From assembly GCA_018713045.1 (NCBI GenBank), contig DVFV01000020.1, forward strand, positions 1-36,631: a stretch of DNA of 36,631 nt, read 5' to 3'. The notes beneath the pieces were generated by a model. The model did not search any database and had not been told where the DNA came from. It saw only the letters and a program-made list of their open reading frames with translations. This document shows positions 2,693 through 15,116 of the stretch, in pieces. Position 1 is the first letter of the stretch, and each line of letters starts with the position of its first letter. Source of the stretch: Candidatus Coprosoma intestinipullorum (GTDB taxonomy: Bacteria; Bacillota_I; Bacilli_A; RF39; UBA660). The translations under genes were made by a program, and so were the position numbers.

Positions 2693-2765
2693 TAGTTTGT
2701 CAGTTTATCCTAACATTTTTAAATATATTAAAAATTGTCTAAATCCATTGATTTATTTAATAAAA

Positions 2766-2845
2766 TATAATACAATTTATGTAGAGGAAGGCCACTAGGC
2801 CAGTCCTTTGATTGGTGTTGACCTAGCTCAAGCTAGGTTTTTTTA
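2766..2845 (+). ncRNA. Candidate antitoxin RNA of a type I toxin-antitoxin locus
   Basis: A TATAAT at 2766-2771 would start a transcript near 2779. It ends at a perfect 16-nt palindrome (CCTAGCTCAAGCTAGG) followed by seven T, giving a predicted RNA of about 67 nt with no ORF. It is convergent with, and overlaps the 3' part of, a short hydrophobic peptide gene on the minus strand. Its start (TAGAGGAAGGC) closely resembles the 5' end of the predicted toxin mRNA (TAGAGGCAGGC). I found no well-spaced -35. The layout matches short convergent antitoxin RNAs such as RNA II of the pAD1 par system, but I see no evident sequence homology. Promoter and role are inferred. Confidence 0.5.
2822..2844 (+). 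terminator. Intrinsic terminator of the small antisense RNA
   Basis: CCTAGCTCAAGCTAGG forms a stem-loop immediately followed by TTTTTTT on the plus strand. On the minus strand the same hairpin lies in the 3' region of the toxin mRNA but has no T-run after it. Confidence 0.8.
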
Positions 2846-2908
2846 TTTTCTCTTTGGACTTTCCCGCAAAAGAAACAGGATTATAACTAATATAGTTAAA
2901 TATTCCAT
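2843..2908 (-). CDS. Candidate type I toxin: 21-aa hydrophobic peptide
   Basis: Too short for the ORF track. The ATG at 2908 opens a 21-codon frame starting MEYLTILVIILFLL and ending in a charged tail (RESPKRK), the layout of small membrane-active toxins. A near-perfect anti-16S match (AAGGAGGTGAT) lies upstream and is masked by a hairpin. A competing ATG at 2915 has better spacing (9 nt, against 16 nt for 2908) and would give a 30-aa non-hydrophobic peptide ending at 2823, so the reading frame is not settled. The peptide is not a recognisable Fst or TxpA homologue. Evidence for a toxin is structural: hydrophobic core, strong but sequestered ribosome site, convergent small RNA, and complementarity between the 5' and 3' regions of the message. 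Confidence 0.45.
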   Translation of the reverse strand: MEYLTILVIILFLLRESPKRK

Positions 2909-2922
2909 ATTCCATTTCTCAT

Positions 2923-2943
2923 CACCTCCTTTTTTAGAAGGTG
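2923..2943 (-). promoter_or_regulatory. Hairpin sequestering the toxin Shine-Dalgarno site
   Basis: On the minus strand CACCTTCT pairs with AGGAGGTG across an AAAAA loop (8 bp, one G-U), burying a very strong ribosome binding site. Further upstream, AAGCTAGGTT in the 5' leader is exactly complementary to AACCTAGCTT near the 3' end of the same transcript. Both are typical control features of type I toxin mRNAs. Confidence 0.6.
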
Positions 2944-3028
2944 GATTTTTCCAAAAGACTTAACCTAGCTTTGCCTGCCTCTATTATATATATACTGTGT
3001 CAACCCTCGATTTCCTTTTAGTTTTAAC

Positions 3029-3056
3029 AAAAAAATGACAAAACCGTCATTTTTTA
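3029..3056 (-). terminator. Bidirectional-looking terminator overlapping the ogt stop codon
   Basis: AAAAATGAC and GTCATTTTT form a stem with a short loop and T-runs on both strands. The ogt TGA stop lies inside the stem. Confidence 0.75.
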
Positions 3057-3532
3057 TTTTTCTCAAACTTAAGCAAATATTCCTTTTTATCCAAGCCCCC
3101 TGCATAACCTGTAAGTCTTCCATCACTTCCCAAAACCCTATGACAAGGAATCATAATTAAAATTGGATTATGAGCAATTGCCCCGCCTACCGCCTGATAA
3201 GAAACTTTTTTTCTAAAACTTAAAATCTTATCACCAATTTCTTTATAAGTAACCGTTTTACCATAAGGAATATCAAGTAAAATATTCCAAACTAAATTCT
3301 GAAAATCAGTACCAGAAAATTTAAACAAACTCTTATCTATTTTAGGATTATTCCCTTTAAAATATCCATCTAACCATTTCGAGACTCTCAAAAATACTTT
3401 TAAATCATCTTTTAAAACAAGCCTATTTAAATTAGGAAAATACTTTTGACCTTTAAAATATAAACCCGTTAAATACTCCCCGTCGCTTACCATAACCATT
3501 TCACCTAAAGGTGAATCATAATAACTATACAT
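3047..3532 (-). CDS. ogt: Methylated-DNA--[protein]-cysteine S-methyltransferase
   Basis: This suicide enzyme repairs O6-alkylguanine (and O4-alkylthymine) by transferring the alkyl group to its own cysteine. The catalytic PCHRV motif lies near residue 130 within IPCHRVLGSDGRLTGYAGG, preceded by the DNA-binding helix region (GKTVTYKEIGD). At 161 aa it is a normal Ogt-type single-domain protein without the AraC-like adaptor region of Ada. Its ATG overlaps the corA stop by one base (TAATG), so the two genes are co-transcribed and probably translationally coupled. It ends in TGA, which shows that UGA is a stop codon here. Confidence 0.95.
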   Translation of the reverse strand: MYSYYDSPLGEMVMVSDGEYLTGLYFKGQKYFPNLNRLVLKDDLKVFLRVSKWLDGYFKGNNPKIDKSLFKFSGTDFQNLVWNILLDIPYGKTVTYKEIGDKILSFRKKVSYQAVGGAIAHNPILIMIPCHRVLGSDGRLTGYAGGLDKKEYLLKFEKNKK

Positions 3533-5290: not shown

Positions 5291-5367
5291 TGGTGGGAGA
5301 TACAGGACTCGAACCTGTGACCTCTTGCACGTCAAGCAAACGCTCTAACCAACTGAGCTAATCACCC
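5291..5367 (-). tRNA. tRNA-Val(GAC)
   Basis: This is a complete 77-nt cloverleaf: acceptor GGGTGAT/ATCTCCC with a U4-U69 mismatch, D-stem GCTC/GAGC, anticodon loop TTGACGT (anticodon GAC), T-arm ACAGG-TTCGAGT-CCTGT, discriminator A and encoded CCA. GAC reads GUC/GUU valine codons. It marks the left edge of the interval holding the AlbA_2 regulator, with tRNA-Thr at the right edge. Confidence 0.93.
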
Positions 5368-5592: not shown

Positions 5593-5614
5593 TTATTTGA
5601 TAGTTATTTGATGG
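5593..5614. repeat. ATTTGAT tandem motif, copy 1 (5' of the AlbA_2 gene)
   Basis: Two ATTTGAT half-sites start 11 bp apart, about one helical turn. The copy overlaps the start of the AlbA_2 gene. Two further copies follow the same gene. Confidence 0.6.
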
Positions 5615-7104
5615 GATGTGTTTTTATGTATACAGTAGAAGAATATAAAGTTTCAGAAGAAGAATTAACTAATTTATTAAAATCTCTATTAAAATTAAAT
5701 ACAGAAAATGAATGGATTGAATTTAAAGTTAATAATGATAATCCTTCAATGATTGGTGAATACATTTCTGCATTGGCAAATTCAGCGGCATTATGCAATA
5801 AAGAACATGCATATCTAATATATGGTGTTGATGACAGGAGTAAAGAAGTAGTAGGAACTGATTTTGATTTCAATAATTCCAAAAAAGGAAATGAGCCATT
5901 ATATAATTGGTTATATAGAAAGTTAAAACCTCAACTTGATTTTACTCCTTATGAAATCCATTATAATACAAAAAGAGTTTTGATAATTGAAATTGATAAA
6001 GCTAAACTTTATCCTATTGAATTTGATAATATTGCCTATATTAGAATTGGACAGCAAAAAAGAAAACTATGTGATTACAAAGAAAAAGAAAAGAAATTAT
6101 GGGACATTTTAAATAAAACATCATTTGAAGAAGAAGTTGCTTTATCTAAATTAGAAATACAAGATATTTTCGAACTACTTGATATAAGTACATATTACAG
6201 AATGCTTGAATTACCTTTGCCAGAAAATAAAGAAAAAATTATAGAAGATTTTAAAGAAGAAGGTTTTCTTAAAGAACTATATGGTAAATTAGCAATTACA
6301 AATTTAGGAGCAATATTGTTTGCTAGAAATATACATCAATTTAAATCAATTACTAGGAAATCGATTAGACTAATTCAATATAAAAATAAAGATAAACTAG
6401 AAACTATAAGAGAAATCAATTATGATAATGGATATGCAATATGCTTTGAGGAAATATTAAAAAATTTGGATCTTTTAACTCCTCAAAATGAGCATATTGG
6501 TCTAGCACTTCGAACTCAGGTAAAAATGTATCCAGAAATTGCACTTAGAGAATTAATTGCTAATGCAATGATTCATCAAGATTTTACAATTGGTGGTACA
6601 AGTATATTAATTGAACTTTTCTCTAATAGAATAGAGATATCTAATCCAGGAACGCCATTGATTAGTATTGATAGGCTTATAGATCACAATCCTATATCGA
6701 GAAACGAAAAATTAGCAAGCATCATGAGACGATTTAAAATTTGTGAAGAAAAAGGCAGTGGGATAGATAAAGTAATTAAATCAATAGAAATATTTCAATT
6801 ACCAGCTCCCAACTTTTTAGAATATGATAGTGGAACTAAAGTTATTATATATTCTTACAAAAAATTGAACGAAATGGACCGTGATGACAAATTAAGAGCA
6901 TGTTATCAACACGCTTGCTTGCAATATGTTTCTGGTGATAAAATGACTAATGAAAGTTTAAGAGCACGATTTAATATCGAAAAGAAAAATGCAGCAATCG
7001 CTTCTAGAATTTTAAGTGATGCAACATTATCTGGATTAATAAAAGAATATCAACCAAACTCTGAATCTAGGAGATATAAAAGTTATTTACCATATTGGGC
7101 TTAG
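5611..7104 (+). CDS. AlbA_2 / HATPase_c_4 putative DNA-binding regulator
   Basis: About 497 aa. The N-terminal AlbA_2 (Schlafen AlbA) domain contains EWIEFKVNND and GEYISALANSAA around residues 35-70. A GHKL-type ATPase region (HATPase_c_4) holds LRELIANAMIHQDF and the ISNPG loop around residues 310-350, and EEKGSGIDKV follows. The C-terminal ~70 aa look winged-helix-like. Such proteins are often labelled RecG-related or transcriptional regulators; their molecular role is poorly known. The start is uncertain: the track uses TTG at 5608, ATG at 5611 is adjacent, and MYTVEEY at 5626 is also plausible; none has a clear Shine-Dalgarno. The gene lies between two tRNA genes and is bracketed by a repeated ATTTGAT motif, which suggests an accessory insertion. 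Confidence 0.8.
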   Translation: MGCVFMYTVEEYKVSEEELTNLLKSLLKLNTENEWIEFKVNNDNPSMIGEYISALANSAALCNKEHAYLIYGVDDRSKEVVGTDFDFNNSKKGNEPLYNWLYRKLKPQLDFTPYEIHYNTKRVLIIEIDKAKLYPIEFDNIAYIRIGQQKRKLCDYKEKEKKLWDILNKTSFEEEVALSKLEIQDIFELLDISTYYRMLELPLPENKEKIIEDFKEEGFLKELYGKLAITNLGAILFARNIHQFKSITRKSIRLIQYKNKDKLETIREINYDNGYAICFEEILKNLDLLTPQNEHIGLALRTQVKMYPEIALRELIANAMIHQDFTIGGTSILIELFSNRIEISNPGTPLISIDRLIDHNPISRNEKLASIMRRFKICEEKGSGIDKVIKSIEIFQLPAPNFLEYDSGTKVIIYSYKKLNEMDRDDKLRACYQHACLQYVSGDKMTNESLRARFNIEKKNAAIASRILSDATLSGLIKEYQPNSESRRYKSYLPYWA

Positions 7105-7328: not shown

Positions 7329-7402
7329 TGGTGCCGCAACGGAGAATTGAACGCCGATTAAAGCCTTACCATGGCCTCGTAATACCTTTATACTATTGCG
7401 GC
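7329..7402 (-). tRNA. tRNA-Thr(GGT)
   Basis: 74 nt with a perfect acceptor (GCCGCAA/TTGCGGC), discriminator A, encoded CCA, anticodon loop ATGGTAA (anticodon GGT) and T-loop TTCAATT. It carries G1-C72, C2-G71 and GGU, which agree with threonine identity. Irregularities are a short D-stem (three pairs), A at position 32 and a C-U mismatch in the T-stem. Likely functional but somewhat degenerate. Confidence 0.82.
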
Positions 7403-13674: not shown

Positions 13675-14526
13675 TTAAGCTTTAACCGGTACAATAATTT
13701 CACCAATTATTTTAATAGCATTTATTGTATCAACAAACTCTATTTTTTTTACATATTCGTAGTTATTTTGATAGCTATTCCATAATGATTTTAATCTTGA
13801 ATCATCACTAATTAATTCTATATATTTGCTAGCATTATCAATATAGTCTAACGTTTCACGTCTCTTAGAAGTATTAATAATTGCTTTTCTTAAAGTGTCT
13901 TTATTAATGTCACTCCATTTTAAATTAACAAACATATATAAATCATAGTAATCTTTCATTCTAGTATTATCAATATTTCTACTAATTATCGATTCAAACT
14001 TCTCAGCAACAATAGTTTCATAATTATAAGTCATAATATCAATTGTTTCATTATCAAATAAAGTATTATATTTAAATTCTACTTCTTTATAAGTGATAAC
14101 ATCTCCAGTAGTTATGTCAATCATTAAATTAGTTTTTAAGCCGTCAAATTCTGCTTTTAAATTAACTTCAAATCCGGAATATAATTCTTCTTCTCTGATA
14201 TCTTTAATATTTTCTACTTCAAGTTTTACGTAATCTTCTGCATCGATACTTATAATTTCATTAATAACTTTAGTAATAGTTTCCCTGTCTAGTGGCAATC
14301 CTTTTATAGTAGTATCCAAATCCATAGTACTTCTTAAATTGACACCAAAGATAGATGATAATAAAAGACCACCTTTAATAATAAATTTATCTTTATAAAT
14401 AGACATTGATACTCTTTTTAATAAAGCCTCAAACATAAAGTCTTGGATTAAATATTTATTAGGTATGTTAGTTTTCTTAGATAAGTTATATGCTTTTGCT
14501 TTTAGATTATCTCTATTTTTGATCAT
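13675..14526 (-). CDS. AbiEii/AbiGii-type nucleotidyltransferase toxin
   Basis: This is the toxin of a type IV toxin-antitoxin pair. The family carries a nucleotidyltransferase core: GGLLLSSIFG and RSTMDLDTTI near residues 48-72 give the glycine pair and DxD metal site. AEKFESIISRN and RMKDYYDLYMF near residues 175-205 are the conserved later motifs of AbiEii. Known homologues block growth by modifying tRNA 3' ends or related targets, and some act in abortive phage infection. The ATG overlaps the antitoxin stop (ATGA), typical of AbiE operons. 283 aa is normal. Family assignment is firm; the target here is unknown. Confidence 0.92.
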   Translation of the reverse strand: MIKNRDNLKAKAYNLSKKTNIPNKYLIQDFMFEALLKRVSMSIYKDKFIIKGGLLLSSIFGVNLRSTMDLDTTIKGLPLDRETITKVINEIISIDAEDYVKLEVENIKDIREEELYSGFEVNLKAEFDGLKTNLMIDITTGDVITYKEVEFKYNTLFDNETIDIMTYNYETIVAEKFESIISRNIDNTRMKDYYDLYMFVNLKWSDINKDTLRKAIINTSKRRETLDYIDNASKYIELISDDSRLKSLWNSYQNNYEYVKKIEFVDTINAIKIIGEIIVPVKA

Positions 14527-15116
14527 CCAAGCACCTCAAAAATATCTCTTACTTTATTATAAATATTCATCTTTTTAGCATATTCATACAGTTTTAAAGT
14601 GTTCTTCTTTTTACTATAAAAATATTCTCTAATAGCCTTATTAAAAATTTCAGCATCTACTTTCTTTTTATTTTTAATAATATCACAAATGGTTTTATCT
14701 AAATCGTAAACTCTGATAATATTACCAGAATCAAGTTTATAGTCAATTACTCCTAACTCTAATAATTCTCTTTTTGTATAAAATAAAGTGACATTATCTT
14801 CTTTTTGAAGGGATCCTTTGTAACCACTTTTAACTGTAATATCATATTTAATAGGAATTCGATTAGACAAGCCGTGTAAATAAAGTGCTGTTGCGTTAGA
14901 ATAAATTGCATACTTACTTTTACTTTGTAGAACCATAAATTCATCTACCAAAACATTCTTTTTAATATATACTCCACGGCTTACTCTCTCTATTTTATTT
15001 TCTTTAATAAGTTTAGTAAGATAAGTCCTAGGAATATTATTTTCAGTAACATCTTTGGTAGTCAAATAACCATTTTTAAATAATTTTAAAATTTTACTTT
15101 CATACCCCATATTCAT
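14523..15116 (-). CDS. AbiEi-type antitoxin, winged-helix regulator
   Basis: The N-terminal winged-helix segment (FKNGYLTTKDVTENNIPRTYLTKLIKEN, residues about 8-35, quoted in part only as LTTKDVTE) ends in RVSRGVYI, typical of AbiEi antitoxins. The C-terminal half is the antitoxin domain (VYDLDKTICDII). AbiEi proteins repress their own promoter by binding inverted repeats, and such a repeat overlaps the promoter here. It precedes the toxin with a 4-base overlap. 197 aa is normal. Confidence 0.9.
   Translation of the reverse strand: MNMGYESKILKLFKNGYLTTKDVTENNIPRTYLTKLIKENKIERVSRGVYIKKNVLVDEFMVLQSKSKYAIYSNATALYLHGLSNRIPIKYDITVKSGYKGSLQKEDNVTLFYTKRELLELGVIDYKLDSGNIIRVYDLDKTICDIIKNKKKVDAEIFNKAIREYFYSKKKNTLKLYEYAKKMNIYNKVRDIFEVLG

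Follow-up and report, generated by a model that had tools for sequence, protein, structure and literature searches.

A candidate type I toxin-antitoxin locus with mirror-image RNAs in Candidatus Coprosoma intestinipullorum and its relatives

What occupies the gap between an ogt-type methyltransferase gene (3047-3532) and the gene for an ABC-transporter ATPase (1908-2660) in the 36,631-nucleotide (nt) stretch of Candidatus Coprosoma intestinipullorum DNA that we refer to as the window? In the sense of the minus strand, the locus in question lies 3' of the former gene and 5' of the latter. An initial annotation had taken it for a candidate type I toxin-antitoxin locus, a reading that the present analysis supports through the conservation of a 21-amino-acid (aa) frame and the recurrence of hairpins and a convergent layout. 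The evidence is that of sequence, with transcript ends assumed. The locus is, in our judgement, probably a type I toxin-antitoxin system with mirror-image RNAs that belongs to an undescribed family, where "undescribed" refers to Pfam, NCBIfam, PADLOC, Rfam and part of the literature, and not to the dedicated type I databases. The parts themselves are present in the DNA: a conserved frame, a leader and tail that covary, a masked Shine-Dalgarno (SD) sequence, convergent promoters and a terminator. The label "toxin" for the 21-aa peptide is used by analogy.

The constrained frame and the layout of the locus

Among 14 homologues, the 21-aa frame exhibits a ratio of non-synonymous to synonymous polymorphism (pN/pS) of 0.32, with second codon positions that are nearly fixed, and is under purifying selection. 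Residues E2, L4, I6 and L7 of the peptide are invariant in the alignment, and its start codon can be ATG, GTG or TTG. The initial annotation had allowed that an overlapping 30-aa frame might be the conserved one; in the same homologues that frame has a pN/pS of 1.42, is interrupted by a stop in one relative (L013) and has shrunk to MEV and a stop in another (L015), and we have rejected it as a real gene on these grounds. The features of the locus in the window are as follows.

2990..3017, minus strand: putative message promoter AAGGAAAT-N14-GTATAT, ~8 nt 5' of the presumed start
2782..2983, minus strand: presumed toxin message, ~200 nt if it continues through the small RNA gene; its 5' end is placed by promoter spacing and a conserved GAGG start
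2951..2982, minus strand: 5' leader AGAGGCAGGCAAAGCTAGGTTAAGTCTTTTGG, complementary to the 3' tail of the message by duplex energy
2943-2923, minus strand: SD-masking hairpin CACCTTCT-AAAAA-AGGAGGTG, seen in the sequence
2843..2908, minus strand: 21-aa toxin candidate MEYLTILVIILFLLRESPKRK, conserved in Bacilli and Clostridia
2823..2915, minus strand: overlapping 30-aa outer frame at a proper spacing to the strong SD, not conserved
2748..2776, plus strand: convergent small RNA promoter TTGATT-N17-TACAAT
2782..2845, plus strand: antitoxin candidate small RNA TAGAGGAAGGCC...CCTAGCTCAAGCTAGGTTTTTTT, ~64 nt, which also occurs as toxin-less extra copies
2782..2815, plus strand: 5' half of the small RNA, nearly identical to the message leader and complementary to the 3' tail of the message
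2820..2849, plus strand: intrinsic terminator of the small RNA, stem GACCTAGCTCAAGCTAGGTT plus TTTTT, the only terminator found in the region

The presumed message (minus strand, ~2983-2782) thus faces the 64-nt plus-strand RNA, and reads from TAGAGGCAGGCAAAGCTAGGTTAAGTCTTTTGG at its start near 2983 through the SD hairpin and the overlapping 30-aa and 21-aa frames to the stem AACCTAGCTTGAGCTAGGTT. The stem of the small RNA terminator also serves as the stem 3' of the toxin stop codon; it is common to both strands, whereas a perfect terminator T-run exists in the window on the small-RNA strand only. The individual parts that had been noticed from the sequence at the outset, namely the hydrophobic 21-aa open reading frame (ORF) with its basic tail, the near-perfect SD within a hairpin, and the convergent small RNA with a perfect terminator, are all in place. 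The 10-nt complementarity between leader and 3' end is there as well (AAGCTAGGTT at 2971-2962 of the minus strand, its complement within the terminator stem at 2820-2839), and proves to belong to a longer inverted repeat than had been noted, in which a leader of ~32 nt (2982-2951) pairs with a tail of ~34 nt (2782-2815).

The arrangement of ribosome-binding sites differs between lineages. In most Bacilli a strong SD lies 12-36 nt 5' of the toxin start, commonly followed by an outer start of a short frame in another register, of a kind that recurs in these loci, and a weaker second SD is found directly 5' of the toxin start; three loci from Clostridia (L090, L120 and L121) have their SD immediately before the toxin start. 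It is possible, by analogy with mok/hok, that the 30-aa outer frame is a leader ORF for coupled translation. The SD of the window has an unpaired probability of 0.15, as compared with 0.43 when the leader is shuffled, and masking is also evident over 46 dissimilar loci (0.32 vs 0.40; p = 0.001).

Candidate promoters occur on both strands of these 46 loci, and the scores on the small-RNA strand exceed those of Markov controls (9.0 vs 7.9; p = 1e-5). Terminators on that strand were found in 28 of the 46 loci, as against 9 shuffled, and in two loci (L044 and L088) there is a message terminator just past the start of the small RNA. The small RNA promoter is nearer to the sigma-70 consensus than is the message promoter. 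The motif AAGGAAAT-N14-GTATAT is common to several copies of the locus in the genus, and three of its four exact occurrences in the genome are at such copies; with its first element in place of TTGACA, it could be the site of an alternative sigma factor, for which SigH- and extracytoplasmic function (ECF)-type factors have been considered. The genome encodes six sigma-70 region 2 proteins, and message promoters in other genera have ordinary TATAAT boxes.

Predicted pairing between the two ends of the message

Both RNAs are predicted to be more stably folded than their dinucleotide shuffles (message, -42.6, z -3.5; small RNA taken as 2781-2847, -25.0, z -3.2). In the fold of the 201-nt message of the window (-69.1 kcal/mol) the two ends are zipped together over ~30 nt, and the leader/tail duplex alone is predicted at -39.9, a value that none of 1000 shuffled leaders attained (-18.0 +/- 3.9). 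Such pairing is specific to each locus. Over the 46 loci, the mean energy of a leader with its own tail is -47.7 kcal/mol and with swapped tails -33.0 (0 of 10,000 permutations), and this swapped-tail control tends to be conservative because the representatives are partly related to each other. The same holds within the genus alone (-41.0 vs -33.0; 0 of 10,000). Most of the signal is located beyond the terminator, in the complement of the 5' half of the small RNA (-36.6 vs -25.7). When whole-message partition functions are used, 26.5 leader-tail pairs are expected, as compared with 10.6 for shuffled leaders and 11.3 for swapped tails, and a locus's own pairs exceed the shuffled ones in 41 of the 46 loci and the swapped ones in 43.

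The small RNA is antisense to the message tail, which gives it a 5' half almost identical to the leader, and hence both RNAs start alike (TAGAGGCAGGC in the message and TAGAGGAAGGC in the small RNA). That the 5' ends are alike and not complementary, which had been pointed out for the window as a departure from Fst/par, turns out to be a conserved property of the whole family. Pairing of the leader with the locus's own small RNA, as par/Fst logic would have it, is predicted at -35.2 as against -31.8 for swapped partners, so that par-like complementary 5' ends are weakly supported. The perfect duplex between the small RNA and the 3' region of the message would be favoured over the separate folds (-157 vs -94.1 kcal/mol).

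Copies, relatives and distribution

The same genome (1.5 Mb, 145 contigs) contains at least three further copies of the locus and one toxin-less copy of the small RNA: contig C129 carries two copies in tandem, C134 one copy followed by the toxin-less small RNA, and C8 a fragment at the end of the contig. Toxin-less small RNA copies with promoter and terminator were seen at G000:C134:525-615 (L010), G009:C34:8565-8655 (L033) and G011:C87:21-111 (L014), and are possibly orphan antitoxins. An alignment of the small RNAs in which rows such as those of L006 and L014 were wrongly placed was left out of the analysis. Within the genus, DNA matches were found in 14 of 44 genomes and peptide-profile matches in 11. 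The neighbouring genes are not constant among the copies, and the ogt gene exists in other genomes of the genus with no locus match adjoining it (for example in G021, the copies of which are on other contigs). The closest named record, that of Candidatus Aphodocola excrementigallinarum (Bacilli), has two tandem copies (L127).

A degenerate DNA pattern for the peptide retrieved 62 stretches from GTDB genomes, almost all of them stand-alone ORFs of 17-27 aa with the consensus MEYLVILVVILVL and a charged tail. The carriers include metagenome-assembled genomes (MAGs) of Bacilli, Acholeplasmatales, Erysipelotrichaceae and Anaeroplasma MAGs and, in the Clostridia, Agathobaculum butyriciproducens DSM 100391, Butyricicoccus, Peptococcaceae, Ruminococcus and Oscillospiraceae. 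Presence is patchy throughout, with 14 carriers among 291 genomes of the family, 10 among 395 of the class and 4 among 392 in a sample of the phylum. In distant lineages the RNA parts have no obvious sequence in common and the layout nevertheless recurs. The conservation of hairpins in relatives, on which the initial annotation had made its reading depend, is borne out for the hairpins and the convergent layout alike, with compensating changes of sequence.

A tblastn search with one Clostridial peptide gave no match in annotated phage or plasmid records. A pattern scan of viral contigs (IMG/VR) returned four matches, two of which are unrelated coding sequence or repeats and two of which are true loci (L147 and L148), an identical Agathobaculum-type locus on two contigs classed as viral; carriage of this type of member by a prophage is therefore possible. 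Variants of the layout were also encountered. In five loci of the Acholeplasmatales/Erysipelotrichaceae type (L080, L092, L097, L102 and L116), a GAAAAGRGGATGC hairpin is enclosed by two copies of CAGCTCRTTTGT, which gives a variant of the RNA layout with repeats that flank the terminator. In one clade of the genus (L015, L016, L022 and L027), the toxin message reads towards a gene for a secreted-type protein of 396-403 aa, followed by a STAS-like gene that by eye is anti-anti-sigma-like (SpoIIAA-like). A second family of hydrophobic peptides exists in the genus (MPKRERFLFDIIFLLFILIFIMLSK; tandem MTKREKSLYAIILLLFILVFVILFK), again with a masked SD: on the minus strand of L020 its ORFs start at 1526 and 1880, and on the plus strand of L023 at 257. 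The leader is a better partner for its own 3' region than shuffles are (0-6 of 200 shuffles reach it), and these loci possibly represent the same RNA design with another peptide, which hints that the recurring unit is the RNA arrangement and not the peptide alone.

Two other genes of the window deserve mention. A gene at 13675-14526 (minus strand) encodes a nucleotidyltransferase of the type IV toxin family AbiEii (Pfam E = 8e-36), and an ORF of 197 aa directly 5' of it (14523-15116) may be its partner. A gene for an AlbA_2/Schlafen plus HATPase_c_4 protein (5608-7104, plus strand) is situated between tRNA genes at 5294-5367 and 7332-7402 and runs against the direction of most neighbouring genes.

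Proposed mechanism, alternatives and known systems

From the parts described above we infer transcription of both strands, toxicity, displacement, decay, and a closure that silences or stabilises the message. The message would encode a membrane peptide of a single helix with a basic tail; its SD would be held in the local hairpin, and its 5' leader would zip to its own 3' tail. This closure might either silence the message, as in aapA (PMC6733600), or protect its ends, as does the upstream helix of par (PMC7472228). The small RNA, which would be perfectly antisense to the 3' region of the message, would take the place of the leader on the tail and form with the message a duplex of ~64 bp that would most likely be subject to decay by RNase III, leaving the peptide unmade. 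Upon depletion of the small RNA, the message would persist and the peptide would be made. For convergent systems of Clostridium and Bacillus, too, duplex decay has been proposed (PMC6563280; PMC5848175). A broader proposal, about which we are somewhat more doubtful than confident, is that of an as yet undescribed, Bacillota-wide type I family in which the antitoxin RNA acts by leader mimicry, its 5' half copying the leader and competing for the 3' tail, and in which the RNA sequences are wholly replaced from one lineage to another, with their complementarity and the MEYLVILV peptide kept.

Several observations weigh against the type I interpretation or parts of it. Blocking the tail has no mean effect on access to the SD (0.29 with the tail and 0.30 without; p = 0.72), which leaves the regulatory sense of the closure unexplained; in the window the SD remains in its local hairpin with or without the tail, and such folding gave no systematic sign of a switch in which release of the leader would expose or hide the SD. 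A clear message terminator was not found in the genus of the window, so that the tail may not belong to the message as drawn. Three loci (L112, L115 and L056) are without the complementarity, some of them near contig ends or perhaps degenerate. The invariance of E2, L4, I6 and L7 represents a stronger conservation than that of many type I toxins and could mean that the peptide has a specific partner, as it would if it were a small membrane peptide under antisense control with no toxic role at all, for example a signal or a member of a membrane complex. We consider that rather unlikely: multiple, tandem and toxin-less copies and patchy presence are typical of toxin-antitoxin loci and, together with the variable neighbours, fit such a locus better than a housekeeping partner. 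Finally, promoter-like sites are no commoner in the region than in shuffles, and genomes of this kind abound in short ORFs and T-rich terminators, as would be expected if unrelated hairpins and a random hydrophobic ORF had come together in AT-rich DNA. Such a coincidence is extremely improbable, being refuted by conservation, in view of the homologues across Bacilli and Clostridia, the constraint on the frame and the locus-specific RNA complementarity.

Two further alternatives concern the manner of control. If the closure silenced a full-length message and 3' trimming activated it, as in the hok and aapA systems, for which long-distance 5'-3' silencing is established (PMC6733600), then the strong and covarying closure predicted here and the outer out-of-frame starts, which recall mok/hok, would be readily understood. 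However, the closure in aapA and hok masks the SD, whereas here a local hairpin masks it equally with and without the tail, and the antitoxin covers the 3' end; control of this kind seems unlikely to us, if deserving of attention. A diverged member of Fst/par that works as does par_pAD1, in which the terminators kiss and complementary 5' repeats close off the ribosome site, would account for convergent RNAs of similar size with a common terminator stem and a hairpin over the SD, as in par (PMC7472228), and for the slight excess of leader/small RNA pairing. But the conserved pairing is that of the leader with its own 3' tail, the peptide is without the conserved Trp and the PXXXG, and the T-run exists on one strand only, all of which makes this explanation improbable.

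If the type I reading is right, a toxin-antitoxin family spread in gut Bacilli and Clostridia escapes annotation, its ORFs being of 17-27 aa. The dozens of dissimilar RNA pairs that keep the same pairing logic amount to a natural covariation experiment, and from the alike 5' ends one would expect the antitoxin to compete with the leader of the message itself. A cultured commensal, Agathobaculum butyriciproducens DSM 100391, carries the locus.

How does the locus compare with described systems? There was no match above cut-off in Pfam, NCBIfam and PADLOC, Rfam gave none for the locus or for 20 relatives, and the peptide strings had no match in the part of the literature that was covered. Among known systems, par_pAD1 of Enterococcus faecalis (PMC7472228) resembles it in having a convergent message and small RNA with a common terminator stem, an upstream stem-loop that masks the SD, a sequestered message 5' end and a short hydrophobic peptide with a charged C-terminus. 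It differs in that direct DNA repeats in par give complementary RNA 5' regions and the inverted repeat here gives alike ones, in that the peptide is of 21 aa as compared with ~33 for Fst, and in that the Fst/Ldr signature, a conserved Trp between membrane helix and charged tail and PXXXG in the helix (PMC7472228), is absent from the peptide alignments of the family. The complementary 5' regions of Fst/par are likewise replaced here by a leader that prefers its own tail.

The overlapping upstream frame of hok is mok, and an overlapping upstream frame is present here too. With aapA/IsoA of Helicobacter pylori and hok/sok the locus further shares hairpins on the SD and a predicted, covarying 5'-3' pairing of the message. 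Unlike in those systems, where the 3' end masks the SD and long-distance pairing alters access to it, the mask here is a local hairpin whose opening is indifferent to the tail; the antitoxin candidate converges on the message and overlaps its 3' region, and no similarity of the peptides was found. Overlap of the antisense RNA with the 3' end of the message is shared with yonT/SR6 and bsrG/SR4 of Bacillus (PMC5848175, PMC6563280) and with CD2517.1/RCd8 of C. difficile (PMC6563280), although the toxins in the C. difficile and yonT cases are of ~50 aa or more, there is no sequence match, and we found no report of a leader-like 5' half for the antitoxins of these three pairs. A very short peptide rich in Val, Ile and Leu recalls Ibs/Sib of Escherichia coli, from which the locus differs in phylum, in its charged C-terminus and in an antisense RNA that does not lie over the body of the ORF; the Pfam Ibs_toxin model remained below its cut-off (12.9-14.6 bits vs 27; best E = 0.034, at 14.6 bits), and among 40 diverse members six reached E <= 1 (best 0.12). 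What the locus has in common with type I systems in general is a small hydrophobic peptide under constraint and, as judged from the DNA, an antisense RNA with a promoter and a terminator of its own.
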